NCBI GenBank assembly: GCA_003695725.1
Contig: RFHX01000125.1
Coordinates: 1-17,834 of the forward strand
Origin: J061 sp003695725 [NCBI: Candidatus Schekmanbacteria bacterium]
GTDB taxonomy: Bacteria > Schekmanbacteria > GWA2-38-11
Length of the DNA: 17,834 nt
Reading direction: 5' to 3'
Part shown: positions 2,856 through 17,707 of the stretch, piece by piece
How positions within the stretch are numbered: the stretch's first letter is position 1
Layout: each line of letters begins with the position of its first letter
Position numbers and translations under genes: made by a program
Notes under the pieces: generated by a model
What the model saw: the letters and a program-made list of their open reading frames with translations, nothing else
The model's database searches: none
What the model was told of the DNA's origin: nothing

Positions 2856-4199
2856 TTATTCGCCTCTTTCAGACTTTTTGATTTTTTCCCTTTTAATCTT
2901 TTCTATTTCATCATCAAGGCGTGAGGACTCGCGCATATATTTCTCTTTTTCTAAATCTGCTGCCATAACAGGCGAGGCTTCCTGTCTAACAATATGAGGT
3001 GTTATAAAGACAATTATTTCAGATTTAATATTCTGTACCTTTGTAAATCTAAAAATATATCCAAGAAGAGGAATACTGCCAAGAAAAGGAATCTGATTTC
3101 TTGTTTCTTCTCTCTTATTGTTGATGAGTCCACCAATAACAATCGTACCACCGTCCTTCACTATAATATTTGTTGTAGCTTCAGTAGTCCTTTTTGACGG
3201 AAGCCCCAATACTACTTCACCATCACTTACTTCAGGATGGACTTCCATCGTGATGAAATTATCATTTGCAATTTTAGGCGTTATAACAAGCTTTGTGCCC
3301 ACATCGAGAAATTCAACTGATTCAGTGGTAACCTGATTTATAGTCGTAGTCACTCTATAACCCAGTTGTGAACCTATTATTATCGATGCCTCTTTACCAT
3401 CAATGGCAAGAAGTTTTGGAGATGCAATGGTTTTGACATTCGATTTCTCCGTAAGAGCTTTAAGGACAAGGTCGAAATTGTCTTTATCAAGCACATAGGA
3501 AAATCCTTCCGTCAATTTGGTAAATCCTTCAACTTTAAAAACATCATCTTTGCCTATCGATTCCCAGTCAACACCAAAAGAATCTTGGTTGTTTAGACGT
3601 GCTTCAAGAATTTTCGCTTCTATCATCACTTGTCTTGGTGCAGTATCAATCTTCTTTACGAGAGCGTCTATTGTCTTGATGTTTGAAGGTAAATCTTCAA
3701 CGATTATTGATTTTTCTTCCTTGCTTATTACAGCTTTACCATATGATGTAAGCATCTTTTCTATGAGATTATAGGTTTCCTCTGTATCAGCATGGTCTAT
3801 TTTATAAAATCTAATCTCTTTATCTAAAATATTAGATGACATCTCTTTGCCGATTTCACCGCCATAAACAAAAACAATATTTCCTTTCTGCGCATATGAA
3901 TAACCATTTGCTTTCACAACGGCATCAAGGGCTTCCTTGAAAGTTACATCATAAAGATTAACTGATACATTTCCCTTCACCGATTTTTCGGCTACTATGT
4001 TGACTCGTCTTTTCTTGGAAAGAATTTGAAGGACATCGGCAATAGGCACATTGCTGACATTGATAGTAATAAGATCTTCATCACTTTTTAATGCAGATTC
4101 TTCACTAAAAAGAACATTTTTCTTCAATTCCTCGGAAAATGCCATGAATGAAAAAATAATGAAAAAGGAAACTGCTATTATGGATATCCTTTTAGCCAT
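2856..4199 (-). CDS. gspD: Short secretin (GspD/PilQ family outer-membrane channel)
   Basis: This 447-residue protein starts with a Sec signal peptide (about 1-22). It then shows an STN/N0-type domain (45-95, 'NVSNVPIADVLQILSKK'), one N1/secretin_N-like domain (about 125-186, 'YKIDHADTEETYNLIEKML') and the C-terminal secretin domain (about 190-405). The secretin domain carries the hallmark 'VGTKLVITPKI' (300-310), 'DGGTIVIGGLI' (349-359) and 'PFLGSIPLLGYIFRF' (371-385). It should form the multimeric outer-membrane pore. GspD and PilQ proteins are usually around 600-750 residues; here the extra N-domains are missing, there are no AMIN domains, and the C-terminus is a charged, probably helical tail (406-447) in place of an obvious pilotin-binding S-domain. 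A Shine-Dalgarno-like AGGA lies about 7 bases before the ATG. The gene follows the GspC/PilP-like gene by 8 bases, the usual partner order. Confidence 0.93.
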   Translation of the reverse strand: MAKRISIIAVSFFIIFSFMAFSEELKKNVLFSEESALKSDEDLITINVSNVPIADVLQILSKKRRVNIVAEKSVKGNVSVNLYDVTFKEALDAVVKANGYSYAQKGNIVFVYGGEIGKEMSSNILDKEIRFYKIDHADTEETYNLIEKMLTSYGKAVISKEEKSIIVEDLPSNIKTIDALVKKIDTAPRQVMIEAKILEARLNNQDSFGVDWESIGKDDVFKVEGFTKLTEGFSYVLDKDNFDLVLKALTEKSNVKTIASPKLLAIDGKEASIIIGSQLGYRVTTTINQVTTESVEFLDVGTKLVITPKIANDNFITMEVHPEVSDGEVVLGLPSKRTTEATTNIIVKDGGTIVIGGLINNKREETRNQIPFLGSIPLLGYIFRFTKVQNIKSEIIVFITPHIVRQEASPVMAADLEKEKYMRESSRLDDEIEKIKREKIKKSERGE

Positions 4200-4207
4200 T
4201 ACATATC

Positions 4208-4732
4208 CTAATCATTTAATTTTATTGAATAAACTTTATTTGCCTCCTCAATCATTACTTCATCAGTGCTAATTGAAACTACCCTGCATCCTTGTATTTC
4301 ACCACCCTCTTCTACAACCTTGTCATTTATAATCGAATATTTTACATCTCCATCTATTACGATTCCCTGCAGTTTGAGATTGTCCAAATTTCTTTCAGCA
4401 TTTTTTCCCGTATTATTCGACAAACTATATCTATCGCCATAACTATCAGATATCATTAGATAATTGAGCGCCTCTTTATTGGAAAATGGATCTCTCTCAA
4501 GAGGAAGAATCTTTTTCTCATTTGAGGTAGGAGTTTTGTATCCCTTATTATTCTGCATCTTCTCTTCAGATTTCACTTCATAATGTTCTTCTATCTTTGG
4601 CAACTTCTCAGCAGTCTTCACTGCTTCAGCTACATTCTTATTACTCTTTATCCTCATAATCCCCAATGGAATAATTCCAAAAACAATTACTGTTATCAAA
4701 AAATACTTCGTACTTTTATTTATCTGAGACAT
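4208..4732 (-). CDS. GspC/PilP-like inner-membrane protein linking platform to secretin
   Basis: The 174-residue protein has one N-terminal membrane helix (about 9-26), then a long low-complexity hydrophilic linker rich in Lys, Glu and Asn (about 28-115). It ends in a compact beta-rich domain of about 55 residues beginning 'LKLQGIVIDGDVKYSIIND'. That layout (anchor, flexible linker, small HR/PilP beta-domain beginning with an 'LxGI' strand) is shared by GspC of type II secretion and PilP of type IV pili, which contact the N-domains of the secretin. PilP is normally a lipoprotein, but no lipobox cysteine is seen here, so topology favours GspC. There is no PDZ domain. It sits between pilO (3-base gap) and the secretin gene (8-base gap), exactly where PilP/GspC is expected. 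The assignment rests on architecture and position more than on strong sequence identity. Confidence 0.72.
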   Translation of the reverse strand: MSQINKSTKYFLITVIVFGIIPLGIMRIKSNKNVAEAVKTAEKLPKIEEHYEVKSEEKMQNNKGYKTPTSNEKKILPLERDPFSNKEALNYLMISDSYGDRYSLSNNTGKNAERNLDNLKLQGIVIDGDVKYSIINDKVVEEGGEIQGCRVVSISTDEVMIEEANKVYSIKLND

Positions 4733-4735
4733 TTC

Positions 4736-5272
4736 CTAATTTCCTTTACCTGCTGTGAACACTTTTAGATTTATTTTTACATTGCACTGATTTGTCTCAT
4801 CATTTAGTCTTTCTATTTCGACTGATTCGATTCTATTCAGTCGTGGAATTTCATTTAGATAATGGATAAATTTGTATGTTTCTTCATAACTTGCCTCTGC
4901 TTTTAAAGTTACTGGCACTTCATTATAAAGCTCTTTTTCTCTTATCTTATGCGGTTCAATTGAAGAAATTAAAAATCCTGATTTTCTTTCAATTCTTTCT
5001 AACTGCCTTATGAAATCATCAATCTTAATATTCTGAGGTAATCTCTCCTCATAAAGAGCCAGTTTTTGTCTTAATTTTTTCATTCCCATCTTCATTGAAG
5101 CAAGCTGCTCTTCTGCGGCTTCTTTTCTCAAAACCTCCTCATTTATCTTTTTTTTGCTTTCCATTATTTCAGCAATTTCTTTATAACGAGATGAATAGAA
5201 GAAGAGGCAAATGAAGATTATGATTATCGTACCTGTCAAAAAGGGAATATCTTTTTTGCAAAATCCTTTCAT
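4736..5272 (-). CDS. pilO: PilO/GspM-like assembly platform protein
   Basis: This 178-residue bitopic protein has a short cytoplasmic start, a membrane helix (about 11-27), a charged coiled-coil segment (about 32-80) and a periplasmic ferredoxin-like domain (about 85-178). The latter includes 'KIDDFIRQLERIERKSGFLI' and 'YEETYKFIHYLNEIPRLNRI'; the second stretch is typical of PilO ('...F...L..LPRIV.I'). PilO and GspM dimerise with PilN/GspL and help anchor the assembly machine in the inner membrane. The gene starts 3 bases after pilN stops and ends 3 bases before the GspC/PilP-like gene, a tightly packed translational arrangement. Confidence 0.85.
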   Translation of the reverse strand: MKGFCKKDIPFLTGTIIIIFICLFFYSSRYKEIAEIMESKKKINEEVLRKEAAEEQLASMKMGMKKLRQKLALYEERLPQNIKIDDFIRQLERIERKSGFLISSIEPHKIREKELYNEVPVTLKAEASYEETYKFIHYLNEIPRLNRIESVEIERLNDETNQCNVKINLKVFTAGKGN

Positions 5273-5275
5273 AAA

Positions 5276-5923
5276 TTAAAGCTCACATTTTAATTTAAAA
5301 TGAACAGCAACAAATTCTTTTTTCATCTCCCTTTCTGCCTTCTCAAGAATAATCCGTTTGAAAATTCCTTCTTCATCAAGATTTTTCATAAAATCGGCAA
5401 TATCAAGATTAGAAAAGCAATAACCTTCAATTTTAATAATATAATCATAATCACTCTTGGTATATTTATCTGACAAAGAAGAGAAGAAACCGCCTGTGGC
5501 TTTAATAATATCTTTTGTTGGACGATTTTTCCCTTCGGATTTATCCTGCTCGAAATCCGAATTAGCTACCGACAAATTTTCAAGCCATATTCGTTCGCCC
5601 ATATTTTCTGCTATAGTATAAAAAATGGATGCCCAAGAGATATTCTTCTCAAGAGATGACAATGCGCTTTCTTTTTCTTTTAAACTTTTTTGTTCATCAA
5701 TGAGTTTTTGAAGTTCAGATTCTGTTTCTTTAAGTTTCTCCTCAACATTACTTTTTTCCAAAATCTTAAACCTTTCTCTTTGTATTTTGACTTCGAGATT
5801 TAAATATAATGGCAGGTAAAGAATCAAAAAAATTGATATTACTGTGAACCAGAATCGATATCTTCTTCTTTTTTCATTTCTTGATATTTCTTCTAAAGGA
5901 AGAAAATTGACTTCTCTTTTCAC
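5276..5923 (-). CDS. pilN: PilN-like inner-membrane platform protein (GTG start)
   Basis: The 215-residue protein begins with a short cytoplasmic peptide containing 'EVNFLP' (residues 4-9), equivalent to the 'INLLP' motif with which PilN binds the groove of PilM. A membrane helix (about 24-42), a coiled-coil (about 45-95) and a periplasmic domain with 'ERIWLENLSV' follow; the last is typical of Fimbrial_PilN proteins ('P..vWL..l'). The start is GTG, overlapping the pilM stop (GTGA, 5920-5923) and preceded by a good AGAGGTGA ribosome site, which supports this start over later codons. It is about 20-30 residues longer than many PilN proteins because of a charged insertion near residues 115-140 ('EQDKSEGKNRPTK'). 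Together with PilM it replaces the single GspL protein of classical type II systems. Confidence 0.87.
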   Translation of the reverse strand: MKREVNFLPLEEISRNEKRRRYRFWFTVISIFLILYLPLYLNLEVKIQRERFKILEKSNVEEKLKETESELQKLIDEQKSLKEKESALSSLEKNISWASIFYTIAENMGERIWLENLSVANSDFEQDKSEGKNRPTKDIIKATGGFFSSLSDKYTKSDYDYIIKIEGYCFSNLDIADFMKNLDEEGIFKRIILEKAEREMKKEFVAVHFKLKCEL

Positions 5924-7014
5924 GATTCTTCACCTCTCAAAGCAAGTCCATAAGCAACAGCAAATTCAGTTAACTTTCTTTCACCTTTATCGCTGCTGTT
6001 ATTTTCTTCATTGGGGCACCAAATACTTACATCGATCTGAAACCTTTGATGAAAATATTGTGACAAATTCTTGATTTTGGCACCTCCACCGCATAAGATA
6101 AAACTCGAAGGCTTTACTCCCCGTAATTCTGCACTGCAATATCTGAATATCTCTTCAATCCCTGATGAAAGCTTTTCTAAATCATCTTTGATTATATCCT
6201 TAATCAATGATGGAATATCATTTTCTCTAATTGCTTCTATATCATTTAAAAAAGAAAGGGATGTGGATTTCTCACCTATTCCGTAGTCAAACAAGTATCT
6301 TTGAGAATCTTCATTGGAAACTTCAAGTTCCTTTTCAATTGATTTCACAAAATGATTACTGCCTACTGGAATTGTCCTGTGTAAAACAAAATTATCGTTA
6401 TTATATACAACTGCCCTACTTTTATTGAATCCGATATCTATGACAGCCAACGGCGATTTTTCCCTCTTCCCTATCTTTTTAATAGCTCTAAAAAGAGCAA
6501 AGGGTAGTAAATCTACTGCGACACAATTGAGCTTTGCCTCTTTCAACACATTAATATAATTTTGCACTACGCGTTTCCTTGCTGACATCATCAAAATCTT
6601 TCTTCTCTTCCCGCCTCCAAATGCTGTTTCTCCCATATCTATATAATCAACTACTGCCTCTTCTTTGGGATAAGGCAAAGAAGAAATTTCTTTTTCAAGA
6701 ATTTGCTCTATAGATTTTTCTTCATCAGAATCCAAAATCAATTGACGGAAATCTACATCATGGGAAGGAAGAGAAATGACAGCATCTTTTCCAACAAATT
6801 TTTCTTTTTTCAAGACTTCCTTTATATAGGGCTTAAATATTATTATTCTTTCCTCTTCTGAATTCACTGATATCTCTTCCTTGATTTTAGCATCTGCATA
6901 AACAATCTTTTCTTTATCGCCCTTCTTTAAAATCTGAGAAACTTTAAGCGATGTTGTCCCCATATCAATACCAATGGGGGAATGCTTTAATTTCCTGAAA
7001 AAATATCCTGACAT
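5920..7014 (-). CDS. pilM: PilM-like actin-fold assembly platform protein
   Basis: This 364-residue cytoplasmic protein has the actin/FtsA-like ATPase fold of PilM. It shows a phosphate-1 motif 'GIDMGTTSLKV' (15-25), an SHS2-type insertion region (about 75-165, with 'AVISLPSHDVDFRQLIL' and 'EKEISSLPYPKEE'), phosphate-2 'VIDIGFNKSRAVVY' (191-204) and the adenosine motif 'ILCGGGAKIKNL' (306-317). PilM binds the cytoplasmic tip of PilN and couples the platform to the assembly ATPase. The frame can be extended by one codon to a TTG at 7017, but the ATG at 7014 lies 4 bases after an AGGGAG ribosome site (7019-7024), so I use ATG. It follows the NHL-minor-pilin gene by a few bases (the ribosome site touches the preceding stop codon) and overlaps pilN by four bases. 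Confidence 0.92.
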   Translation of the reverse strand: MSGYFFRKLKHSPIGIDMGTTSLKVSQILKKGDKEKIVYADAKIKEEISVNSEEERIIIFKPYIKEVLKKEKFVGKDAVISLPSHDVDFRQLILDSDEEKSIEQILEKEISSLPYPKEEAVVDYIDMGETAFGGGKRRKILMMSARKRVVQNYINVLKEAKLNCVAVDLLPFALFRAIKKIGKREKSPLAVIDIGFNKSRAVVYNNDNFVLHRTIPVGSNHFVKSIEKELEVSNEDSQRYLFDYGIGEKSTSLSFLNDIEAIRENDIPSLIKDIIKDDLEKLSSGIEEIFRYCSAELRGVKPSSFILCGGGAKIKNLSQYFHQRFQIDVSIWCPNEENNSSDKGERKLTEFAVAYGLALRGEES

Positions 7015-7018
7015 CAAT

Positions 7019-7024
7019 CTCCCT
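7019..7024 (-). promoter_or_regulatory. Ribosome binding site of pilM, decides start
   Basis: AGGGAG on the minus strand lies 4 bases upstream of ATG 7014 and only 1 base upstream of the alternative TTG 7017. It therefore favours the ATG. It abuts the TAA stop (7024-7026) of the preceding minor-pilin gene, suggesting translational coupling. Confidence 0.6.
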
Positions 7025-8412
7025 TAATTTATGGTAATTACCCTTATTCTATTGTTTGCTGTATCAACTATAAAAATGCTCCCTTCATTGTTGCCATCAA
7101 GGGTATGAGGTGAGGAAAATTTGGCATATTTAGGAGGACCTCCATCTCCTGCAAATCCTCCATGAGTAGGTATGCCCGCATAGGTTGAAATAATTCCTGT
7201 GGTAGGGTCAACAACTCTAATGCATTGATTTCCTGTATCTGCAATAAGCATATATCCCTCACTGCTAAACCATATCCCTGATGGTGTTTTTATTTTAGCC
7301 GCAACTGCCGGACCTCCATCTCCTGAATAACCGCCACTGCCGATGCCTGCCACTGTAGTAATAATACCCGTAGTTAAATCGACTTTTCTTATCCTATTAT
7401 TAGAAGAATCAGCAATATATAGGTTTCCAGTCGAATCAAGAGCAATTCCTGAAGGGTCCTTAAGCTTTGCAGATATTGCAGGCCCTCCATCTCCTGAATA
7501 ACCGGCATTGCCTGTGCCTGCTATAGTATCTATAATTCCAGTTACCGCATCTATCTTTTTTATCTTGTCATTTTGAATATCTGCAAAATAGATATTCCCT
7601 GCTGAATCAAGGATTATATCGACAGGTTGGTCAATTTTTGCCAATGTTGCCACCTCTCCGTCATCATCGCCAGGACTTCCTGTGCCTGCTATGGTTGTTA
7701 TAATCCCTGAAGAATCTACCTTTCTAATGCGATGATTCATTGTGTCACAGATGTATATATTACCTGAATTATCAACATATACACCTTCGACTTTATTGAG
7801 CATTGCTGAAACTGCTGGAATACCATCTCCGTTGTAACCGGCTGTGCCTGTACCTGCCACAGTTACTATTTTTCCAGTCGTCTTTGAAACCATTCTTACC
7901 CGATGCTGTTTTTGCACAGCAATATAAATATTGCCTGCCAAATCACATGAAACATCTGTTGGCGTATCCAATCCTGCATCGACTGCAGGAATTCCTTCGC
8001 CATTGTAGGTGTTGCTGCCATTTCCAGCATATGTCTTTATTATCCATCGTATGTATGCATGAGTAATTATCTCCGACGATGCACCATTGAATATGCCAGT
8101 TGCCTTAATAAAAACAGATTCATTGTAAAGAGCTTTATTTATCGTATACTTAAAACTTCCTTCTTCAAAATTCTCGGTAAAGACAATGCCATTGTTGGCA
8201 TCGGCAAAGAATGGTTTTCTGAGCATTAACCACAGAGCTTTTCTAAGTCCTGCTTCAGCATAATAATATGATTTTGATGCATCTTCCAAAGATTCTTGTG
8301 ATTCCGACTCCATTGTGCTTATGTAAACATAACTCATAGATAGCAGAGAAATCGTAAGAAGCATAATCAGAAGCGCTGCATATGCAATTCCTCTGTCATT
8401 GTTAATCTTCAT
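7024..8412 (-). CDS. gspK: GspK/PilX-type minor pilin fused to a six-bladed NHL beta-propeller
   Basis: This 462-residue protein has two parts. Residues 1-123 look like a PilX/GspK-type minor pilin: a short basic leader ending in 'DRG' (cleavage expected after G8), a hydrophobic helix (9-32) lacking Glu at +5 as is usual for GspK, and the PilX_N-like 'SYYYAEAGLRKALW' (48-61). Residues 127-462 are six successive NHL repeats of 53-57 residues, each with the pattern 'T.AG.G..GY.GDGGPA..A....P.G...D..GN.YIAD..N.RIR'. Six units are the number needed to close an NHL propeller, and the strand at 121-129 can pair with the last blade. In GspHIJK tip complexes GspK caps the filament, so the propeller would be displayed at the tip. 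It overlaps gspJ by four bases (ATGA) and is followed closely by pilM. The classical GspK alpha-domain is absent. The ligand is unknown; NHL propellers bind proteins, peptides or carbohydrates. Confidence 0.9.
   Translation of the reverse strand: MKINNDRGIAYAALLIMLLTISLLSMSYVYISTMESESQESLEDASKSYYYAEAGLRKALWLMLRKPFFADANNGIVFTENFEEGSFKYTINKALYNESVFIKATGIFNGASSEIITHAYIRWIIKTYAGNGSNTYNGEGIPAVDAGLDTPTDVSCDLAGNIYIAVQKQHRVRMVSKTTGKIVTVAGTGTAGYNGDGIPAVSAMLNKVEGVYVDNSGNIYICDTMNHRIRKVDSSGIITTIAGTGSPGDDDGEVATLAKIDQPVDIILDSAGNIYFADIQNDKIKKIDAVTGIIDTIAGTGNAGYSGDGGPAISAKLKDPSGIALDSTGNLYIADSSNNRIRKVDLTTGIITTVAGIGSGGYSGDGGPAVAAKIKTPSGIWFSSEGYMLIADTGNQCIRVVDPTTGIISTYAGIPTHGGFAGDGGPPKYAKFSSPHTLDGNNEGSIFIVDTANNRIRVITIN
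7027..8034 (-). repeat. Six tandem NHL repeats (about 160-171 bases each)
   Basis: Within the minor-pilin gene, six degenerate in-frame repeats encode the propeller blades at 7864-8034, 7696-7863, 7528-7695, 7357-7527, 7186-7356 and 7027-7185. The recurring motif is 'AGTG..GYSGDGGPA' followed by 'GN.YIAD..N.RIRKVD'. Blades 4 and 5 are the closest to each other and to the family consensus. Blade 3 has an acidic 'GDDDGE' loop in place of 'GYSGDGG'. Blade 6 is shorter and ends the protein. Confidence 0.9.
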
Positions 8413-9305
8413 CTATTTCTTTCTCCATCCTTCTCTTCGAGATTTCGTGGATAAACCTGTTCGAAGAAATTTAGGACATTCCCTTTCTTATCTTTAACCT
8501 GCATTTTTATGACTAAAAGCGGTTCTCCCTGCAAAAGAGGCTGATAGCTCACATTAAAGCCTTGAACTCCTGATGCAATTTCCCTTGTGATTACATCTGC
8601 TGTAATAGAATCAATTTTCTTTTCTATAAGCGTATTATTATTCGAATCTATGTAATATATGAGTGGATCAGGAGGATCTTCATCCTGATTTCCATCTTCG
8701 TCATCGTCAGCAGGAACACCTTCGTCAATGTTTCCATCGTCGTCATCGTCGAAAAGATATATGCCTGAAAAGCCGTCTTCATTCATATCTGCCGATAAGT
8801 CCTCGTCTATAAAGCCGTCTCCATCATCATCAACACCATTACATTGCTCTTCATTTACAGCTCCTTGCTCATCATCATTCTTTAAATTTCTTTCATCTAT
8901 CAAACCATTTCCATTATCATCATATAGTATAATCCCAGATTCACCATCAGATGTCATATCCTCTCCTACATCTTCATCTATTCTTCCGTCTCCATCATTG
9001 TCGATACCTGCAGATATTGCAAGAATGTCTCTGTTCCTATTTGAAGGGGTTAAACCTCCTGTAGGAATTAAAAGGAATTTGCTTTTTCTTATGTTAGAAA
9101 CGATTATCTCCATAGCATATGCTGCGCGGCGAAAGAGATAATTCTCCTCTTGATATTCTGTATAAGCGTCAATGGATGAAATAAAAAGTGCTGAAGCCGT
9201 CAAGGCAAAGATAGAAATGATAGTTATGCTTATTATAAGCTCAAGAAGAGTAAGCCCTTTTTTTGATTCAACTGTTGATCTATAATAGCAGCCATTTCTT
9301 TCCAA
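8409..9305 (-). CDS. gspJ: GspJ-like minor pilin with duplicated aspartate-rich calcium-loop block
   Basis: The 298-residue prepilin has a class-III cleavage site 'ESKKG|LTLLE' (cut after G17, Glu at +5 = E22) and a hydrophobic helix to about residue 45. The region 46-98 and the C-terminal beta strands (about 215-285: 'LIYYIDSNNNTLIEKK', 'IASGVQGFNVSYQPL') match GspJ/PilW-type minor pilins. Between them lies a highly acidic insertion (100-214) made of two copies of a 53-residue unit (100-152 and 157-209, 29 of 53 positions identical). The insertion contains dockerin/EF-like D-x-D-x-D-G loops such as 'DNDGDGRIDED', 'DDNGNGLIDE', 'DDDGDGFIDED' and 'DDDDDGNIDE'. The start is a TTG at 9305, supported by GAGGGA six bases upstream; no ATG or GTG lies in frame before the cleavage site. 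Gene order H-I-J-K supports the GspJ role. Calcium binding is inferred from the motifs. Confidence 0.88.
   Translation of the reverse strand: MERNGCYYRSTVESKKGLTLLELIISITIISIFALTASALFISSIDAYTEYQEENYLFRRAAYAMEIIVSNIRKSKFLLIPTGGLTPSNRNRDILAISAGIDNDGDGRIDEDVGEDMTSDGESGIILYDDNGNGLIDERNLKNDDEQGAVNEEQCNGVDDDGDGFIDEDLSADMNEDGFSGIYLFDDDDDGNIDEGVPADDDEDGNQDEDPPDPLIYYIDSNNNTLIEKKIDSITADVITREIASGVQGFNVSYQPLLQGEPLLVIKMQVKDKKGNVLNFFEQVYPRNLEEKDGERNR
8679..9008 (-). repeat. Tandem duplication encoding two 53-residue acidic calcium-loop units
   Basis: Unit A is encoded at 8850-9008 and unit B at 8679-8837, separated by four codons. Each unit has the order 'G(I/V)D.DGDG.IDED', 'DM..DG.SGI.L', 'D....G.IDE' and a terminal 'DDE.G..(N/D)E'. 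By my own alignment 29 of 53 residues are identical without gaps. Part of unit B (about 8695-8755) is a near-trinucleotide run of GAC/GAT/GAA codons. Confidence 0.85.
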
Positions 9306-9311
9306 AAAAAA

Positions 9312-9317
9312 TCCCTC
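9312..9317 (-). promoter_or_regulatory. Ribosome binding site supporting the TTG start of gspJ
   Basis: GAGGGA on the minus strand is followed by six T bases and then TTG (9303-9305). There is no in-frame ATG or GTG between it and the prepilin cleavage site, so this site fixes an unusual TTG start. The site overlaps the TGA stop of gspI. Confidence 0.6.
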
Positions 9318-9699
9318 ACCGTTTCATTGTAACAAGGTTTTTTGAATCGATTACTATCGACTGTAGTTTTATACTATCAACAGTTACAATAACTTTACGG
9401 GCGTCATTTTCAGGTATAGAGTCTCCGTCTAAATCGCAGGGGAGGACACTCCAAGTCCTTGTAATTACTTCTCCTTGGATTGACACTGTATCTGTCCCGC
9501 TTGTAAGGTTGGAAAAATCGACAGCATTGATAACCTCCATCATCCCTCTTGCATAGCTAAGCTTTTCCATCTCTTTACGCGCCTCATCAGACGATTTAAA
9601 TCCCATAGAAAAGGCATAAGATATGGATAAAGCAACAATGGCAAGTATAGTAATGGAAAGAAGTGATTCAAGAAGGGTAAAACCGCTTTTTTTTTTCAT
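9316..9699 (-). CDS. gspI: GspI/PilV-like minor pilin
   Basis: This 127-residue prepilin is the usual GspI size. The leader 'MKKKSG' is cut before 'FTLLE' (after G6, Glu at +5 = E11), followed by a hydrophobic helix to about residue 30 and a small globular domain. 'FKSSDEARKEMEKLSYARGMMEVI' continues the helix, and then a beta domain ends in 'ARKVIVTVDSI', the typical GspI/PilV strand. Residues 89-99 ('DLDGDSIPEND') form a single acidic loop like those in the neighbouring GspJ. A run of ten A bases lies immediately after the ATG (Lys codons 2-4), so the reading frame there is prone to slippage. It sits 19 bases after gspH and 10 bases before gspJ. In type II systems GspI nucleates the I-J-K tip complex. 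Confidence 0.86.
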   Translation of the reverse strand: MKKKSGFTLLESLLSITILAIVALSISYAFSMGFKSSDEARKEMEKLSYARGMMEVINAVDFSNLTSGTDTVSIQGEVITRTWSVLPCDLDGDSIPENDARKVIVTVDSIKLQSIVIDSKNLVTMKR

Positions 9700-9718: not shown

Positions 9719-10201
9719 TTACTGAATTTTTATATTGCCCGTTGAAACATCGATAATGATTACTTTCTTTTTTCCGCCATATCGAATTTCAATAATGCCT
9801 CCATTTACTGTACCATCAGGATTGAAATTTAAAGAGTTTCCACCTCCGTTAATTACAACTTGATATAAATCGACATCTTCAAGATTAAATTTATCAGTAA
9901 ATGTAATAAGAAAATCATCTTTTCGGAGAGGATGTTTTATATAAGCGCCCTCTTGCTCAAGTGAATATCTGTTGTTCGCAGAATCAAAAACAACATTAAC
10001 TATTTTGCCTGTTTTTAATGCATAGCTTCTTGCATAATTGATATCTGATGCAATCCTCCTTGCAGCTGAATCTAAAGAAAAGTTGGTCGAAGAATCATCT
10101 AAAAAAGCAATGCCTGCTCCTACAATGATGGCAATAATCGTAATTACAAGAATTATTTCAATTAATGTAAACCCTTTAATCTTTCTATCTCTCTGTGCCA
10201 T
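9719..10201 (-). CDS. gspH: GspH/FimT-like minor pilin
   Basis: The 160-residue prepilin has leader 'MAQRDRKIKG' cut before 'FTLIE' (after G10, Glu at +5 = E15). A hydrophobic helix with 'IIVGAGIAFL' follows, then the GspH signature 'AARRIASDINYARSYALKTG' (positions about 46-65) and a beta-rich domain with 'VVFDSANNRYSL'. The end 'NFNPDGTVNGGIIEIRYGGKK' (about 125-145) is the well-known FimT/GspH 'F.pdG' strand. GspH sits at the base of the tip complex and joins it to the major pilin. It is the first gene after the intrinsic terminator that follows gspG, so its transcription depends on read-through or on an unproven promoter in the 10202-10345 gap. The Shine-Dalgarno is weak. Confidence 0.92.
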   Translation of the reverse strand: MAQRDRKIKGFTLIEIILVITIIAIIVGAGIAFLDDSSTNFSLDSAARRIASDINYARSYALKTGKIVNVVFDSANNRYSLEQEGAYIKHPLRKDDFLITFTDKFNLEDVDLYQVVINGGGNSLNFNPDGTVNGGIIEIRYGGKKKVIIIDVSTGNIKIQ

Positions 10202-10394: not shown

Positions 10395-10925
10395 TTACCA
10401 AGTATCGTAGCCCGAACTGTTGGCAATAAATTGTCCTGTCACTGAACTATATTTCCACCCTTTTGTAGGATTTGCATCAGCGGAAATCGCCGAAGCAGAA
10501 GTTGTTACATTAACCCCATCTTTAGCAGCTGAAGCGGTCGATTCAGCAAGCTGATTCTCAGGAATTCTATCTCTAAGATAAGGTCCATAAGGATAATTTG
10601 CTCTATCAAGAGTAGGCGATGTTTTCCCATTTTTATCAGAATATAAAGTAAGCTGAGCAACAAAAGATGCTTCAGGATCTGCAGGGGCTCCGCTTCCTGT
10701 GGTATGTTCAACGGCACCCGGATAAGTGCTGTTATGCTCATGATAATAACGCTCGATTGCCCCTCTGATTGTGGCTAAGTCGCCTTTCAAAGTTGATTCT
10801 CTTGCATCCTTCGATGCATCTGTAAATTGAGGAATTGCAAGAGCAGCCAAGATTCCAAGGACGATTACCACAAGCAGAAGCTCAATCAGGGTAAATCCTT
10901 CTTTTCTTTTCAGATGTTGTATCAT
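10395..10925 (-). CDS. gspG: Major pilin / pseudopilin (GspG-like)
   Basis: The 176-residue prepilin has leader 'MIQHLKRKEG' cut before 'FTLIELLLVVIVLGILAAL' (after G10, Glu at +5 = E15). The helix continues as 'AIPQFTDASKDARESTLKGD', a stretch shared by GspG-type and many environmental PilA-type pilins. The globular part has 'IERYYHEHNSTYPG', 'YPYGPYLRDRIPEN' and the C-terminal 'GWKYSSVTGQFIAN'. Between the last two is an Ala/Ser/Thr-rich stretch (about 128-152), a possible surface loop. The classical calcium loop of GspG is not obvious. Expression should be high: a full AAGGAGGT ribosome site lies 7 bases before the ATG, and a strong terminator follows the stop. The gene is 37 bases downstream of gspF. 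Whether the product builds a short pseudopilus or a surface pilus cannot be settled from sequence. Confidence 0.9.
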   Translation of the reverse strand: MIQHLKRKEGFTLIELLLVVIVLGILAALAIPQFTDASKDARESTLKGDLATIRGAIERYYHEHNSTYPGAVEHTTGSGAPADPEASFVAQLTLYSDKNGKTSPTLDRANYPYGPYLRDRIPENQLAESTASAAKDGVNVTTSASAISADANPTKGWKYSSVTGQFIANSSGYDTW

Positions 10926-10962: not shown

Positions 10963-12084
10963 TCATCTTCCTATTGTGGAAGACATCTTAAATATGGGAA
11001 GTATAATCGATACTGCTATAAATCCCACAATAGCGCCCATTAAAACTATTAATGTCGGTTCAATCAAAGTCGTTATCCTTTTAATTGTCCTTTCGGTTTC
11101 TTCGTCATAAAAGTCAGCCATCCTTGACATAACTTTTCCCAGAGCGCCAGATTCTTCACCAACTACAACCATTTGTCGGACAGAAGGAGGCATAAGTTTA
11201 GAATTTTCATAAGAGAGGGACAATTTTTTTCCATTTTTGACATTATCTTCCATTTCATTCATAAAGTCATAAAAGGGTTTATTGTCCATTGTGCTTTTTG
11301 TAACCTCTATAGTCTCAAGAAGAGGAATGCCGGCATCGAGCAATACACCCATCAATCTCATCATTCGTGCTATATAAACATTCGTAAATAATCGTCCTAC
11401 AATGGGAAATTGAAGCTTCAAAGAATCGATATATGACCTGAATTCATCCTTTTGAAGAAGATAATAGCCTGCACAAAGAAGTATCAATAGAAATGTGAGA
11501 ATAAAAAACCAATAATTATTCAGCAAATATGACAGTTCAAGAAGTATTTTCGTAGGTGTTGGAAGAAGGTCTTCATTGCCTTGGAAAATTTTCACGAATC
11601 TTGGCAACACAAAGGATAAAACAAATATAACAACACCGAAGCAAAAAAGGAGAAGAATAAAGGGATATGTTGTGGCTGATTTTAAATTCGAAACCATCTT
11701 CTCCCAGCTTTCTTGAAAAGCTGCAAGCCGCTTTAGCATTTCATTTAAAACGCCTCCGCTTTCACCAACTTTTATCATACTGACAAACAAAGGAGAAAAA
11801 CAGGAGGGATGTTTTTTCATTGCGCTGGAAAGCCGCTGTCCTTCTTCAACATCTGATATGATTTCCTTCAATGTTTTTTTCAATTCTTCATTTTCCATTT
11901 CCTCTGAAATTGCTTTAAGTGAAGGCACAAGTCCGCTATCCATCTCAAGCATCAGGTGAAGTTGATTTGTAAATAAGATAAGCTCCTTTAAGGTTACCTT
12001 TTTCCGTTTGAAGTCCGTATTCAATACCTTTTCAAAAAAAACCTTTAACGCCGGAAGTGATAATATATTTTCTTCTGTTTTCAT
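10963..12084 (-). CDS. gspF: GspF/PilC inner-membrane platform protein
   Basis: This 373-residue protein has the two tandem T2SSF domains expected of GspF/PilC. The first (about 32-158) contains 'FTNQLHLMLEMDSGLVPSLK' and 'SMIKVGESGGVLNEML'. The second (about 235-362) contains 'RMMRLMGVLLDAGIPLLETI' and 'MVVVGEESGALGKVMSRMA'. Three membrane segments are visible, near 141-165, 192-212 and 340-364. The protein sits in the middle of the inner-membrane platform and transmits ATPase movement to pilin subunits. It is slightly shorter than typical family members (about 400) because of a reduced N-terminal cytoplasmic extension. The gene starts 15 bases after gspE with a poor ribosome site and precedes the major pilin. 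Confidence 0.95.
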   Translation of the reverse strand: MKTEENILSLPALKVFFEKVLNTDFKRKKVTLKELILFTNQLHLMLEMDSGLVPSLKAISEEMENEELKKTLKEIISDVEEGQRLSSAMKKHPSCFSPLFVSMIKVGESGGVLNEMLKRLAAFQESWEKMVSNLKSATTYPFILLLFCFGVVIFVLSFVLPRFVKIFQGNEDLLPTPTKILLELSYLLNNYWFFILTFLLILLCAGYYLLQKDEFRSYIDSLKLQFPIVGRLFTNVYIARMMRLMGVLLDAGIPLLETIEVTKSTMDNKPFYDFMNEMEDNVKNGKKLSLSYENSKLMPPSVRQMVVVGEESGALGKVMSRMADFYDEETERTIKRITTLIEPTLIVLMGAIVGFIAVSIILPIFKMSSTIGR

Positions 12085-12099
12085 TGTCTTATCTAATTT

Positions 12100-13830
12100 T
12101 TAACTTGCTCTTTTTAAAACTGTTTCGTCCTCTTCCGCATAAATTACCCTAGTTACCTCCTCCAAAGAGGTAATGCGCTCTCTTATCAATCTTAAACCTT
12201 CTTCTCTAAGACTTTTAAATCCCGATTTCTTTCTTAAAGCAATCAATTCGTCAATTGTTGGATTTCTTGCAATCAAAGCTCTTGCCTCCTCAGAGACTTC
12301 AAAAAGCTCATATATTCCTATCCTTCCCTTAAAACCTGAATCAAAACATTCAGGACATCCTTTGCCTTTTACCAAGGTTGCATGCTCGGTATTATCCCAT
12401 CCAATTCTGTCGAGCAATGCTTTAGAGGGGATATATGTTGTCTTGCAGCTTGGACAAACCTTTCTCACAAGCCGCTGGGCAACAGAGCCAATAACAGCCG
12501 ATGCGACAAGATATGGTTCAATATCCATCTCAAGAAGTCTTGTAATCGCACCACAGCTGTCATTGGTGTGTAAAGTAGATATAACGAGATGTCCTGTTAA
12601 AGCCGCTTGAATAGCTACTTCAGCTGTCTCCCTGTCCCTAATTTCTCCAACCATAATAATATCAGGATCGAGGCGAAGGACAGATTTTAATATCTTTGCA
12701 AATGTCAATCCTATTTTTTCATTCACTTGAATCTGGTTCACTATTTCAAATTGGAACTCCACTGGGTCCTCAATTGTAATAAAGTTCTTTTCAAGAGTAA
12801 GAAGATGGTTTATGGCGGCATATAATGTTGTAGTTTTCCCGCTTCCTGTTGGTCCTGTTACAAGAATAAGCCCGTTGCTGCGCTTCAACATATTTTTGAA
12901 AGCCGTGCCAACTTCAAGAGGGAATCCCAATTTATCTAAATTAAATTCAATACTGTTTTTATCAAGAATTCTCATAACAATTGCCTCACCGCTTATCGTA
13001 GGCATTGAAGAAACTCTTAGATCCACATCCTTGCCATCTGATAAGATATGTATACGTCCCTCCTGAGGCAGTCTTCTCTCAGCAATGTCAAGTTTAGCCA
13101 TAACTTTTACTCTTGAAATTATAGCTGGAAGAATCTCCTTTTTACTGCTCATAACTTCATGCATAATACCATCAATTCTGTATCGTACTCTAAATTTATC
13201 AATATCCGGCTCAATATGAATATCACTTGCTCCATCGCGAATGGCATTCATTATGATGAGGTTAACTAAATTTATTACAGGACTTCCTTCGGCAAGCTCC
13301 CTAAGCTCCTCTTTCTCCTTATCATCACCTTCTTCAACAACTTGAACATCGATCTCTTCCAATGAATCAAGGAAGTGTTCTTTTGAAACATTATCTGAGT
13401 AATATTCTTCAATAAAATTCTGTATGTCTGAAACACGGCAAAGGACGGGGAGAACTTTGCAGTTTGTCGTTTTTTCAATATCCTCAATCACATAAACGGC
13501 ATAGGGGTCAGTCATTGCAAGAGTCAATTCGTTTCGCACCTTGAACATTGGAATAACTTGATAAAGCATCGCCTTTTCTTTAGGGACAATATTTACAATT
13601 TTTGGGTCTATAAGCCCTGTTCTCAGCCATACATGAGGAATCCCTGACTGCTCGCTTAAAATCTCCGTTAGACGCTCATTCGTTATAAAATTCATATCTA
13701 CCAGTATCTGGCCAAGCCGTAGTCCGCTTTGTCTTTGTTTTGCAAGCGCCTGATTAAGTTGGTCAGGAGAGATGATACCCTGTGATACAAGCATATCACC
13801 CAGCATCGATTCTTTCCTTTTTGGCTTCAT
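12100..13830 (-). CDS. gspE: GspE/PilB assembly ATPase with N-terminal MshEN-like domain
   Basis: The 576-residue ATPase starts with an MshEN-type region (about 7-63). This has two copies of the 'LG..LV..G......L...L..Q' motif (10-32 and 39-61), linked to a second N-terminal subdomain (to about 145). The C-terminal motor has Walker A 'GPTGSGKT' (326-333), the Asp box 'ITIEDPVEF' (351-359), the Walker B segment 'DPDIIMVGEIRD' (388-399) and the His box 'LTGHLVISTLHTND' (411-424). A tetracysteine zinc site is formed by C459/C462 and C492/C495. These features make it an assembly (PilB/GspE) and not a retraction (PilT) ATPase. MshEN domains bind cyclic di-GMP in characterised proteins. Here motif 1 has Met where MshE has Arg before LG, and motif 2 has Asn for the mid-motif Gly, so binding is uncertain. 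Its ATG overlaps the STAS gene stop by four bases. Confidence 0.96.
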   Translation of the reverse strand: MKPKRKESMLGDMLVSQGIISPDQLNQALAKQRQSGLRLGQILVDMNFITNERLTEILSEQSGIPHVWLRTGLIDPKIVNIVPKEKAMLYQVIPMFKVRNELTLAMTDPYAVYVIEDIEKTTNCKVLPVLCRVSDIQNFIEEYYSDNVSKEHFLDSLEEIDVQVVEEGDDKEKEELRELAEGSPVINLVNLIIMNAIRDGASDIHIEPDIDKFRVRYRIDGIMHEVMSSKKEILPAIISRVKVMAKLDIAERRLPQEGRIHILSDGKDVDLRVSSMPTISGEAIVMRILDKNSIEFNLDKLGFPLEVGTAFKNMLKRSNGLILVTGPTGSGKTTTLYAAINHLLTLEKNFITIEDPVEFQFEIVNQIQVNEKIGLTFAKILKSVLRLDPDIIMVGEIRDRETAEVAIQAALTGHLVISTLHTNDSCGAITRLLEMDIEPYLVASAVIGSVAQRLVRKVCPSCKTTYIPSKALLDRIGWDNTEHATLVKGKGCPECFDSGFKGRIGIYELFEVSEEARALIARNPTIDELIALRKKSGFKSLREEGLRLIRERITSLEEVTRVIYAEEDETVLKRAS

Positions 13831-14177
13831 ATGAAACTCCGTTTTGCACTTTCTATATCAGAATAAATATCAAGCTGAGTAGCCAACCTTGTTGTACGAA
13901 AAATATCTTCACAGATATGACTAGGATTTGCTATCTTGAGTGCAGCTCCTCTTTTTTGGCTCTCTTCAATCAAATCAAGAATCACTTCCAGACCTTTGCT
14001 TTCAATGAAATTAACAGAATTCATTTCAAGAACAATTTTGTCATAACCTTCATCAAAAGCATTCATAACTGCTTGTCTCAAACTTTCAACAACTTCATTT
14101 GCTATAGCCTCATCTATCCAGAGAATAAGATATTGGCCATGAATACTTTTCTTGATTACATTTTTAATTTCCGCCAT
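13827..14177 (-). CDS. STAS-domain protein (anti-sigma factor antagonist-like)
   Basis: The 116-residue protein is a single STAS domain like SpoIIAA/RsbV. It has an N-terminal beta strand 'YLILWIDEAI', helix 'ANEVVESLRQAVMNAFDEG', strand 'DKIVLEMNSVNFI' and the signature 'IESKGLEVILDLI'. S60 lies at the place of the phosphorylatable serine of SpoIIAA ('DSSG'), with the usual Asp replaced by Glu and the second Ser by Lys. Such proteins work by partner switching with a serine kinase and phosphatase. No RsbW-type kinase or PP2C phosphatase is in the window. The four-base overlap (ATGA) with gspE suggests coupled translation and hence a role tied to the assembly ATPase or its regulation, but the partner is unknown. 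It starts 30 bases after the HD-GYP gene. Confidence 0.85.
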   Translation of the reverse strand: MAEIKNVIKKSIHGQYLILWIDEAIANEVVESLRQAVMNAFDEGYDKIVLEMNSVNFIESKGLEVILDLIEESQKRGAALKIANPSHICEDIFRTTRLATQLDIYSDIESAKRSFI

Positions 14178-14207: not shown

Positions 14208-15773
14208 TTAGTGCACATCGCTGAATTTCAATTCTTTTCTATTGATTCCACTAAGCACATTGTTCAAATTCTTGAAAAAAATATCGACTATATGCGAGTC
14301 AAGTTGAGACCCCGATGATCTTTTTATTTCTTCAAGTATTTCATTAAGGGACAATCTTTTTCTATAAGGCCGATCGCTATTAAGAGCATCAAAGGTATCA
14401 GCAACAGCAATTATTCTTGATATCAAAGGAATCTCTTCTCCTTTGAGTCCATTAGGATATCCTTTCCCGTCTATCCTTTCATGGTGATGAAGTATTCCTT
14501 TAGCTACATTTTTAAATTCAACAATATGTGATATAAGGTTGGCACCAACTATGGGGTGTGTTTTGATTATCTCATATTCCTCTTTTGTTAACTTTCCCGG
14601 TTTTTTTACAATTTCGCTTGGAATATTGATTTTTCCAAGATCATGAATAATCGATGCCCACTTGAGGTCAAACATTGCATCTTTTCCAAGATTCATTGCT
14701 TTGCCAATATGAATCGATATTTCATAAACTCTTTTTGAATGCCCTTCAGTATAATCATCTTTACTTTCAATTATATTCAAAAGCATTCGAATAATGTTAA
14801 ATAATAAATTTTGTATTTGTTGATAGAGCTCTCCATTCTTAATTACATTTGCCATACTCTTTGCAATTGTTTCCAGAAGTTTCAGATGGTCATTTAGAAA
14901 AAAATCTTCTGAGCTCTTTTTGAAGAAATTCAATGTGCCAAAATTTTTCGTACCGCTCATAATGGGAATGACCAACACATTCATATCTTCAGAAGAAAAA
15001 CCCCTTAAATTACTATATTTGCCTAATTGGTTGATTATTAAAGGTAGAGATTTATCACCTCTCATTTTATCAATTTCTTTGCATATCTTTTTTAACTTTG
15101 TTTCTTTTATAATTTCTTCAATATGCGCCAATGGATTATTCAAATAGATGACTTGATTCTCAACTCCCTTTGTATTCCAAACAACAAAATGCGGATTTAT
15201 TAGTTCGATTGATTTCCTGACTATGTATTCAATTGATTCATCTTTTGAATTGTTCATATCAATATTGTCTGCAATATCATATATTAAGGAAAGTTCTTCA
15301 AATTTGAGGGAAAGGTCTTCTGTAAGGTTTTGGACTTCATAATTCTGATATATATTCTCAGCTATCAAGTTGGACATTGTCTGCACAAATGCAAAAATTC
15401 TTTTCCTTTCCTCCAGAGATGATTTTTTGCCAAACTTCAGTGCACAAAAAACCCCTATTTTGCTCCCTTTTAAACTTTCAAAGGATGTCAGATAGATATT
15501 TGCTGAAGTTTCACTTTTAAAATAAAAAAATCTTTTTTTATTTTTTACCAAAACTTCCTTTGCAAGATGCTGAATTTTACATTTGATGCTTTTTGCCGAG
15601 AAGTCATCTATTTTTTTCTCTTCGAAGGATTTGGGAAACTTATCAAGAAGGAATTCTCCGTTGTTGTCCAAGAGGATTATATGGAGGTCTGCAAAAGAAA
15701 AAATATTTTTACATAAGATATCGATTTTGGATAAAACATAACTCTTTTTGAAAAAATCTCTAATTTCAGGCAT
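14208..15773 (-). CDS. GAF plus HD-GYP cyclic-di-GMP phosphodiesterase
   Basis: This 521-residue soluble protein has three parts. Residues 1-150 are a putative sensory domain that I cannot name with confidence (GAF- or PocR-like appearance, 'LHIILLDNNGEFLLDKFP'). A GAF domain (about 160-315) contains 'NVLVIPIMSGTKNFGTLNFF'. A C-terminal HD-GYP domain (about 325-510) has the full metal-ligand set: H345 in 'GHSKRV', H377/D378 in 'IIHDLGKINIP', H406, H430/H431 in 'HHHERIDGKGYP', and D459 in 'VADTFDAL'. The GYP signature 'DGKGYP' (435-440) is intact, so hydrolysis of cyclic di-GMP is expected. The gene follows the receiver gene by 9 bases and precedes the STAS gene. The pairing of a cyclic-di-GMP hydrolase with an MshEN-containing assembly ATPase in one cluster suggests that the two act in one circuit. 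Confidence 0.93.
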   Translation of the reverse strand: MPEIRDFFKKSYVLSKIDILCKNIFSFADLHIILLDNNGEFLLDKFPKSFEEKKIDDFSAKSIKCKIQHLAKEVLVKNKKRFFYFKSETSANIYLTSFESLKGSKIGVFCALKFGKKSSLEERKRIFAFVQTMSNLIAENIYQNYEVQNLTEDLSLKFEELSLIYDIADNIDMNNSKDESIEYIVRKSIELINPHFVVWNTKGVENQVIYLNNPLAHIEEIIKETKLKKICKEIDKMRGDKSLPLIINQLGKYSNLRGFSSEDMNVLVIPIMSGTKNFGTLNFFKKSSEDFFLNDHLKLLETIAKSMANVIKNGELYQQIQNLLFNIIRMLLNIIESKDDYTEGHSKRVYEISIHIGKAMNLGKDAMFDLKWASIIHDLGKINIPSEIVKKPGKLTKEEYEIIKTHPIVGANLISHIVEFKNVAKGILHHHERIDGKGYPNGLKGEEIPLISRIIAVADTFDALNSDRPYRKRLSLNEILEEIKRSSGSQLDSHIVDIFFKNLNNVLSGINRKELKFSDVH

Positions 15774-15782
15774 ATATCATTC

Positions 15783-16190
15783 TCAAATTTGAGAACCTTC
15801 TATCTTTTTTTCATCTGAAAAATAGTCCATTACAACCGACAGAAGATAACGAGGACTGAATGGTTTAGGAACGAAGATAGTGTCCTTTATTGATTCAATT
15901 TCTTTCTTCTCAGACATAGATGTGAGAGAAGCATAAGAAGAAAGCATTATAAGAAGAAAATCTCTTTCTTTCTTAATCTCTTTACATTCTCTACATAGTT
16001 CAAATCCTGTCATTTCAGGCATCTTATTGTCAGTTATTACAACATTTGGTTTTTCTTTCTTAATCAACTCTAAAGCTTCTCTGCCATTCTGAGCTGTAAT
16101 TACTGAAAAGCCGCTCTTTTTAAACTTTAGTTCAAGGACATTCAATATGGATACCTCATCATCAGCAATCAAAAGCTTTTTTTGTTTCAT
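15783..16190 (-). CDS. Single-domain response regulator (CheY-like receiver)
   Basis: The 135-residue protein is a stand-alone receiver with D10/D11, phosphoacceptor D54 in 'VVITDNKMPEMTGFELC', Ser in 'MLSSYAS' at the Thr/Ser switch and Lys in 'VPKPFSPRYLL'. It has no output domain; the C-terminal 15 residues are only a charged tail. Its start codon overlaps the kinase stop codon (16187-16190), so the two are surely partners. The loop 'SEKKEIESIKDTIF' between the switch strand and the Lys strand is longer than usual. It could act on the adjacent HD-GYP protein, on GspE, or as a relay or sink to the NtrC-type regulator at the other end of the cluster. Confidence 0.93.
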   Translation of the reverse strand: MKQKKLLIADDEVSILNVLELKFKKSGFSVITAQNGREALELIKKEKPNVVITDNKMPEMTGFELCRECKEIKKERDFLLIMLSSYASLTSMSEKKEIESIKDTIFVPKPFSPRYLLSVVMDYFSDEKKIEGSQI

Positions 16191-17707
16191 ATTTTTTTCC
16201 TTTTAATAAAACTTTCTCCCCGTACCTTAGGTAAGGTAATTTTAAATGAGCTTCCTTCGCCTATTTTACTTTCCACAAAAATTTCGCCTCCATGAAGATA
16301 TACTATCTGCTTTACTACTGACAATCCCAAGCCATGTCCTGTACAGGCTCGTACTTCCTTGCGGTTTGAACGATAAAATTTCTCAAATATGTGAGGTAAA
16401 TCTTCCTCGGCAATGCCTATACCTGTGTCTCTTATTGTGATTACTACATTGTTTTCATTTTCTTCACCTTCAATAAAAATTGAGCCTCCCCTTTGCGTAT
16501 ATTTTATTGCATTACCGGCAATATTATTGATTGCCATCTGAATAAGACGCTTGTCTAACTCAACAGATGCTGATAGCTTTTCGGGAATGTCCTTATAGAG
16601 TTTAATCCCTTTCTTAGCCGCTTGTGGCTCAATCATCAAATAGGCATCCTCTAAAAGCTTTTTAAGTTTAACTTGAGACTTTTCAATTACCGTACTTCCA
16701 ACTTCTATTTTGGAAATATTTAGAAGGTTGTTTATCAAATCACCCAGTCTATCAACCTCATCGATTATACTGTTTAAAAATTCAATCCTCATATCCTTGT
16801 CTTCAACTTCATCGTCAAGTATCATCTCTGCTTTTGCTTTGATCGATGTCAATGGTGTCCTTAATTCATGGGAAACACTCGATACAAAATCATTTCTCAT
16901 CTGATCAGCCATTGCTTGTTGAGTATTATCTATTAAAATCAAAGCTTTACCTAAGGCTTTGTTATTATCATTCCTGACAGTTTCATATACAGCTTTGAAG
17001 ACTCGCTCATTCTTAAGCCCATTATCAGACAAAAAGATGTCATACTTGATTTCTCTCTTTTCAGAATTTCTTTTTTCCTTTAAAAAATTTACTACTCCAT
17101 CATATTTTTCCAATACATCGACAATATTCTTGCCGCAGTTATCCTTTCTCGAAATACGAAAAAGGCTCTCAGCATAACTGTTGATATAGAGAATATTTCC
17201 TGACAAATTCGTTACAATCAAGGCTTCAGGCAGACAATCGAGGACAGACTGAAGTTTTTTCCTCTCATATTTCATCAAAGTTAAAGCCGTTTCAAGCTCC
17301 TTTTTATCCCCTACAAGCTTAGTTTTTGTTTCGTTGAAAGTTGATAGAGCTTCATTAATGCGCTCAACGAGAATGTCTATTTCCTCACCACTGGAGGTAT
17401 TGGCAGTAGAGGTAACCCGATTTTCAAAAGAATTAACTTTTTTTAAGTTATTATGTAAATTCTTTATTGGCTTGATTATATTTTGAAAGAAATAATATTG
17501 AATAAATGAAAGTGCTGAAACGAGCAAAAGCACTAAAACAATATCCTTGAGATATACAATTCGCTCATTGTCCTTGTAGGCATTAAATGTCATTACAATT
17601 AATGTAATCAATGTAATTACAAGTAAAGAAAGAATAATAATCTTCCCCCTTTTTCCCATATAGGAAAATAATGGAATCTCCTTCAAAGTCTTGGCTTCAT
17701 TCTGCAT
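16187..17707 (-). CDS. Membrane sensor histidine kinase with PAS domain
   Basis: The 506-residue kinase has two membrane helices (about 21-43 and 53-75) with only about ten residues between them, so there is no extracytoplasmic sensor domain. A HAMP-like linker and coiled-coil (about 76-150), a PAS domain (about 151-262, 'EALIVTNLSGNILYINSYAE'), a HisKA domain with phosphoacceptor H280 in 'SSVSHELRTPLTS' and a HATPase_c domain follow. The last has the N box (N395/N399 in 'INNIAGNAIKYT'), the G1 box 'DTGIG' (427-431), 'FEKFYR' and the G2 box 'GHGLG' (457-461). All catalytic boxes are intact. The PAS domain and membrane helices are the likely sensing elements. Upstream is 127 bases of non-coding sequence to the window edge, so this may be the first gene of the transcript. 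The ribosome site is weak ('GCGGATAT'). Confidence 0.95.
   Translation of the reverse strand: MQNEAKTLKEIPLFSYMGKRGKIIILSLLVITLITLIVMTFNAYKDNERIVYLKDIVLVLLLVSALSFIQYYFFQNIIKPIKNLHNNLKKVNSFENRVTSTANTSSGEEIDILVERINEALSTFNETKTKLVGDKKELETALTLMKYERKKLQSVLDCLPEALIVTNLSGNILYINSYAESLFRISRKDNCGKNIVDVLEKYDGVVNFLKEKRNSEKREIKYDIFLSDNGLKNERVFKAVYETVRNDNNKALGKALILIDNTQQAMADQMRNDFVSSVSHELRTPLTSIKAKAEMILDDEVEDKDMRIEFLNSIIDEVDRLGDLINNLLNISKIEVGSTVIEKSQVKLKKLLEDAYLMIEPQAAKKGIKLYKDIPEKLSASVELDKRLIQMAINNIAGNAIKYTQRGGSIFIEGEENENNVVITIRDTGIGIAEEDLPHIFEKFYRSNRKEVRACTGHGLGLSVVKQIVYLHGGEIFVESKIGEGSSFKITLPKVRGESFIKRKKI

Follow-up and report, generated by a model that had tools for sequence, protein, structure and literature searches.

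Pilins with grafted binding modules are already known: passages of PMC8179133 (Raynaud 2021) report 264 such architectures, found via the N-terminal signature IPR012902, and S. sanguinis PilB (vWA) and PilC (lectin) are modular pilins whose modules are proposed there to be tip-exposed. In the same passages the alpha-domain of GspK is inserted into the pilin sheet. According to passages of PMC10191384, the subunit that caps a tip complex has no Glu5, and adhesive domains are found on modular pilins. PilC/PilY1 (PF05567) is a beta-propeller protein proposed to sit at the type IV pilus tip, but it is not itself a pilin and is held there, as a separate protein, by minor pilins. Here we analyze a 17,834-nt stretch of a Candidatus Schekmanbacteria genome (contig RFHX01000125.1 of GCA_003695725.1), called the window, in which one gene encodes a minor pilin that continues into a six-bladed NHL propeller (the window pilin). 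It resembles PilB and PilC in its modular build, PilY1 in its propeller, and GspK/XcpX (PF03934) in being encoded after J, in lacking Glu5 and in carrying a large extra domain; unlike in GspK, this domain follows the pilin sheet and is not inserted into it. It differs from the modular pilins of PMC8179133 in that NHL is not among the domains named in section 9 of that paper, and in that the same slot holds different heads within one conserved gene cluster. We found no description of an NHL-headed pilin or of a conserved swap slot in the literature searched (mostly at the level of titles, with few subscription journals, the supplement of Raynaud 2021 lying outside its scope), and no pilin-NHL fusion in the gene list of PMC10599522 or the figure legend of PMC9769857. 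The new elements are thus the NHL head and the conserved slot with exchanged heads.

A pilin module followed by an NHL propeller

A preliminary description of the window had proposed a pilin-propeller fusion in one uninterrupted frame, directly after the J pilin. Both points stand, and its coordinates are correct: the protein is a single stop-free frame running from 8412 to 7024, whose start overlaps the gspJ stop by 4 nt (ATGA) and whose end falls 6 nt short of the listed TTG start of pilM, so that pilus genes surround the propeller.

7024..8412, minus strand: modular minor pilin with a PilX-like module and a six-bladed NHL propeller, 462 aa
8389..8412, minus strand: prepilin leader MKINNDRG, residues 1-8, then IAYAA; putative cleavage site
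8047..8388, minus strand: pilin module, residues 9-122, with alpha1 (model helices 5-25 and 39-65) and four strands at 76-120
8248..8265, minus strand: YYAEAG motif, residues 50-55, from the sequence
7027..8043, minus strand: six NHL blades, residues 124-462, from Pfam, repeat comparison and the model

The leader reads MKINNDRG, with the putative cut before IAYAALLIMLL, a hydrophobic alpha1 after the Gly and with Ala at +5, i.e. no Glu5. The window pilin thus has the class III (prepilin) leader and hydrophobic alpha1 of a modular pilin, together with a C-terminal extra domain that is not pilus-specific. In the profile searches that had been proposed, the NHL half came out clearly (TEN_NHL 4.4e-32 and NHL 3.6e-22, both above cut-off), but PilX_N stayed below its cut-off (E=0.01, 16.3 bits against 25.5). 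The T2SSK domains (PF03934, PF21687) and PilY1 (PF05567) gave no match to the window pilin in this Pfam scan. N_methyl (PF07963), which we take to be the Pfam form of IPR012902, did not match it either, and hence the window pilin may have been missed by the IPR012902 survey. Six repeats of 55–59 residues, with blade limits set by eye, fill residues 124-462 up to the C-terminus, and comparison of each of the 15 blade pairs with 200 shuffles gives z values from 6.4 to 16.2. The best sequence match is a teneurin-like NHL propeller (4e-76).

We modeled the protein with AlphaFold2 from a three-row alignment of the window pilin, the stand-alone NHL protein L061 (see below) and L234, an NHL protein from the search of viral contigs that was used as a folding row and in one repeat count. 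The mean predicted local distance difference test score (pLDDT) is 82.7; in the propeller most residues exceed 90, with weaker values near 411-430. Four pilin strands end at residue 120 and are followed by a strand at 123-129, which probably closes blade 6, and then by the six blades. VIA-align matched 250 of the 251 residues of Pizza6, which we take to be a six-bladed propeller, to model residues 122-461 (Z about 33, root-mean-square deviation (rmsd) 1.6). The best fold match is the teneurin-like 9ifo (Z 43.4, rmsd 2.1, 335 residues, 45% identity), likewise the top match in Foldseek; 9pt5 is a similar teneurin-like NHL propeller, and the fold also occurs in SOQ1 (7djm) and NHLRC2 (6g7w). According to the abstracts of PMC5851990 and PMC6425310, the teneurin propeller is part of a large protein of YD-repeat origin, not of a pilin. 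In the predicted structure, then, the six NHL repeats form a closed six-bladed ring, as the preliminary description had expected such a prediction to reveal. Its further suggestion, that the propeller stands in place of the GspK alpha-domain, does not hold, and we rejected GspK as the identity of the window pilin: the propeller comes after a finished pilin sheet, there is no T2SSK match, and a GspK is encoded elsewhere in the genome, in a separate gspGHIJK cluster.

Could two genes have been joined here by a sequencing or assembly error, the outcome that would have undone the preliminary description? The fusion was not seen in the closest genomes (G001-G003) in the loci examined, which cover part of their NHL matches. 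Against such an error stand the open frame, the ATGA overlap and the flanking pilus genes, and it is in practice refuted by the unrelated genome G364, where the fusion recurs between gspJ and pilM; we regard its likelihood as negligible. The propeller also exists without a pilin module: L061, from a Verrucomicrobia metagenome-assembled genome (VHCW01000109.1), has six repeats by eye, and its best segment is 42% identical to the window pilin and ends at about the equivalent residue, as if the propeller were a full domain in its own right.

With 109 of the 386 genomes matching at E<=1e-8, NHL domains are frequent, but their fusion to a pilin is rare. The survey that had been suggested for such fusions near gsp genes found them in at least three of the 386 genomes (the window genome, G364 and G358), in a screen restricted to open reading frames of >=150 aa with >=6 NHL-like motifs, with N-termini judged by eye in loci L001-L034, L084-L108, L111-L148 and L150-L178. 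The G358 protein (L110:6359-8404, 682 aa) has an extra region between pilin and propeller; it follows a gspGHIJ-like set whose J has no Asp repeats, and the 15 kb examined there contained no pilM match. No relative of the window pilin was found in viral contigs. PilX-like pilins with long C-terminal regions occur in genomes of the same order (G002/G003 loci L054:4300-6009 and L055:7202-10201), the L055 frame containing masked stretches and an internal second leader-like segment. The G+C content is ~0.41 over the propeller (7027-8043) versus 0.31–0.35 over pilN-pilM; since gspG is also at ~0.41, the difference does not point to a foreign origin.

The gene cluster and its relatives

The window pilin belongs to a cluster with the order histidine kinase, response regulator, HD-GYP protein, STAS protein, GspE, F, G, H, I, J, window pilin, PilM, N, O, P (doubtful) and secretin:

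16187..17707, minus strand: PAS histidine kinase
15783..16190, minus strand: response regulator receiver, named from sequence and relatives
14208..15773, minus strand: GAF-like region plus HD_5 domain (HD-GYP type), probable phosphodiesterase of cyclic di-GMP (c-di-GMP)
13827..14177, minus strand: STAS-domain protein
12100..13830, minus strand: extension ATPase GspE/PilB with MshEN / c-di-GMP-binding motif domain
10963..12084, minus strand: platform protein GspF/PilC, best score as GspF
10395..10925, minus strand: major pilin, GspG-like
9719..10201, minus strand: GspH-like minor pilin (PF12019 1.5e-9)
9316..9699, minus strand: GspI/PilV-like minor pilin (N_methyl above cut-off; equivalog scores below cut-off)
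8409..9305, minus strand: GspJ-like minor pilin with DxDxDG Asp-rich repeats (residues about 102-211), kept in nine clusters
5920..7017, minus strand: PilM
5276..5923, minus strand: PilN
4736..5272, minus strand: PilO
4208..4732, minus strand: PilP position, no family match above cut-off
2856..4199, minus strand: secretin (PilQ 235 bits, GspD 183 bits, both below cut-off)

PilM, PilN, PilO and the secretin are above their Pfam cut-offs, and the ATPase and platform protein are present. None of the ten cluster proteins scanned reaches an equivalog or subfamily cut-off for the machines of type IV pili or type II secretion systems (T2SS): the NCBIfam scores for PilB, PilQ and PilM are all below cut-off, GspD reaches 183 bits against a cut-off of 351, GspC_delta 15 bits, and T2SSM_b 18.5 bits, below cut-off, on the PilO protein. 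Elsewhere, the window genome (G000) has the separate gspGHIJK cluster (L227, C265), with GspK above cut-off (PF03934 and PF21687), a further pilM-to-secretin cluster (C100) and, on C130, two PilT-family genes over cut-off. PilT-family ATPases exceed the cut-off in all seven genomes tested, which makes filament retraction possible. PilY1 (PF05567) was undetected in 9 of the 11 genomes tested, including G000, which fits the analogy to PilY1 drawn in the preliminary description.

A two-row GspJ profile (window and G364) matched 37 of the 386 genomes at E<=1e-6. Six of these matches cover >=85% of the profile: G000, G364, G274, G267, G361 and G088. The last was dropped as a cluster member: its GspJ match is weaker and a pilin follows, but the 19-kb stretch has no PilM match. 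Among shorter matches, G001, G361:C53 and G347 lack the cluster, and others (e.g. G254, profile 20-216) fall outside the count. With a five-row GspJ profile, matches were obtained in four of nine genomes of the G267 phylum, two of eight of the G361 phylum and one of eight of the G274 phylum, queries counted; the G364 phylum (5 genomes) was searched with the G364 NHL pilin only. This gives nine clusters in all (G000, G364, G274, G267, G361, G388, G389, G390 and G396). The block from histidine kinase to GspF lies upstream of the pilins also in G267, G388, G389 and G390, i.e. in five of nine with the window; G364, examined that far upstream, has STAS-E-F at the same place, contig ends interrupt the G361 and G396 clusters (in gspG and gspF), and in G274 the cluster is visible only from gspI on, beside unrelated genes. 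G364 and G396 alone gave a PilP match at E<=1e-2, and several others have a similar-sized frame at its position. An unrooted machine tree places G000, G364, G274 and two CBM96-like groups, with supports of 72–100.

In each of the nine clusters, gspJ and pilM flank one pilin that lacks Glu5 (for G390 more than one Gly could be the cleavage site, and no choice places a Glu there). PilX_N was reported for eight of these slot pilins, always below cut-off. The neighboring GspJ retains Glu5 in nine of nine (the position in G361 read by eye), and its center contains DxDxDG segments in every cluster, with two to four strict copies each; in the window these repeats lie at 8673-9002. Calcium binding is the ordinary reading of DxDxDG-type motifs, and the GspJ repeats probably bind calcium and provide a good marker of this filament class. 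As the calcium sites of the P. aeruginosa tip lie in XcpX/GspK (a passage of PMC6211770), the calcium-binding part may, by analogy, have moved to J in the window system.

Different heads behind one pilin module

The distal heads of the nine slot pilins comprise two NHL propellers (G000 and G364), six CBM96/DNRLRE-like domains and one solenoid-like domain. CBM96 is above cut-off in the heads of G361, G388, G389 and G396, and Disaggr_repeat in those of G389, G390 and G396; the G267 head has no match above cut-off and is 51–59% identical to the heads of its three family members, and the G274 head has a weak pAdhesive_15 match (0.0077). The heads are bulky, about 190–355 aa by our cut points. Between the NHL, CBM96-like and solenoid-like groups, the pilin modules align with hhalign probabilities of 99.2, 98.6 and 97.8%, and the distal modules of the same groups do not (0.2, 0.0 and 0.1%), with pilin/head cut points chosen from alignments and domain starts and with the solenoid-like group being one sequence. 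The G364 pilin module, which carries an NHL head, is closest by BLAST to that of G361, which carries a CBM96 head (39%, 3e-14). Three head classes imply at least two head changes. By sequence comparison, therefore, the head has been exchanged at one boundary, with the pilin module and the chassis (GspE-J, PilM-N-O, secretin) conserved across distant bacteria, and it looks as if the filament tip could be re-equipped by swapping one domain.

The possible role of the head

We favor, with a probability of about 0.6, the explanation that this modular pilin caps a c-di-GMP-linked type IV filament and presents an exchangeable binding head. It is read as a cap because tip subunits lack Glu5 and modular pilins carry adhesive domains (passages of PMC10191384 and PMC8179133); the absence of Glu5 agrees with the tip position given to the window pilin in the preliminary description. 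The prepilin peptidase would cut off the leader at the site visible in the sequence, and the pilin module would then join the GspH-I-J complex that presumably starts the filament, with the window pilin at the very top and its propeller projecting past the tip through the secretin. There the propeller might bind a surface, a polysaccharide or a protein partner. The DxDxDG repeats of GspJ, probably with bound calcium, could stiffen the tip, and the MshEN, STAS and HD-GYP parts suggest that filament extension may be controlled by c-di-GMP.

The preliminary description had also considered that, in a secretion machine, the propeller at the tip of a short pseudopilus recognizes or pushes exported proteins. 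Such a role has some basis, since the pilin set is GspG/H/I/J-like, the platform protein scores best as GspF, no machine cut-off was reached for either system, and HIJK of T2SS interacts with secreted effectors (a passage of PMC10191384). It is weakened by the presence of PilM-N-O, by a secretin that scores higher as PilQ than as GspD, and by the separate gspGHIJK set of the genome with its own GspK. Moreover, the sugar-binding-like heads in six relatives make binding of a surface or polysaccharide more likely than selection of cargo, and we consider the secretion role unlikely.

An enzyme displayed on the filament, of lactonase, lyase or esterase type, would agree with matches of the window pilin to SGL (3.8e-8, above cut-off) and Phytase-like (1.4e-4, below cut-off); these lie within the NHL repeats, however, and are far weaker than those to NHL and TEN_NHL, and in other genomes the slot mostly holds heads of a binding type, so that we find an enzyme improbable. 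The fact that all heads are bulky and unrelated between classes could also mean that the domain is a structural plug, without any ligand, whose sole effect is to cap the filament or restrict its length, much as XcpX/GspK is considered to control pseudopilus length (a passage of PMC6211770). Six of nine heads are carbohydrate-binding-like, though, which is more than a mere plug needs, and this explanation appears quite improbable.

Several observations weigh against a tip cap with a binding head. The analysis predicts no particular ligand, and NHL-type propellers also occur in enzymes. The tip location, binding and assembly of the window pilin, like the calcium, the c-di-GMP control and the head function, are what we infer from the genes. 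N. meningitidis PilX is located along the filament and not at its tip (a passage of PMC10191384). The pilin module is the weaker part of the AlphaFold2 model, with pLDDT below 50 for residues 1-37 and mostly 50–84 for the remainder, and the single-sequence GspJ model (pLDDT 41) was not used, calcium being read from the sequence. The G267 slot pilin has no PilX_N match at E<=0.1, the G361 and G396 heads match TGFb_propeptide above cut-off, so that the family name of the heads is not unique, PilT and a GspK are encoded on other contigs of G000 than the window cluster, and PilY1 is present elsewhere in G364 and G361, two of the nine cluster genomes.

Finally, the window pilin module is the most diverged of all (best BLAST match to another member 3e-5), and it has no BLAST match to the isolated G364 module at E<=10, which would fit separate capture of the NHL heads in these two genomes; the full-length alignment of the two proteins does extend into the pilin module. 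Among 15 hand-chosen NHL domains, that of the window is closest to that of G364 (48%, 296 bits, the next 234), with supports of 50–88 near it in the NHL-domain tree. Given the G358 fusion in a different cluster, there may have been more than one capture of an NHL head.

Extending the tip-cap explanation, we tentatively suggest, at somewhat less than even odds, that these clusters represent a type IV filament class of their own, present across several deep bacterial lineages, in which a GspJ collar with calcium repeats and a plug-in tip head (NHL, CBM96-like or solenoid) at a fixed junction are combined with an otherwise conserved machine, doing the job of PilY1 mostly where PilY1 was not found. 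The grafting of domains onto pilins thereby becomes a comparison inside one conserved cluster, with the same machine and pilin module and different heads, and the proteins supply a natural pilin-head junction. Head specificity and the presentation of a folded propeller at a filament tip become directly testable, and the arrangement suggests how lineages without detectable PilY1 could equip their pili.
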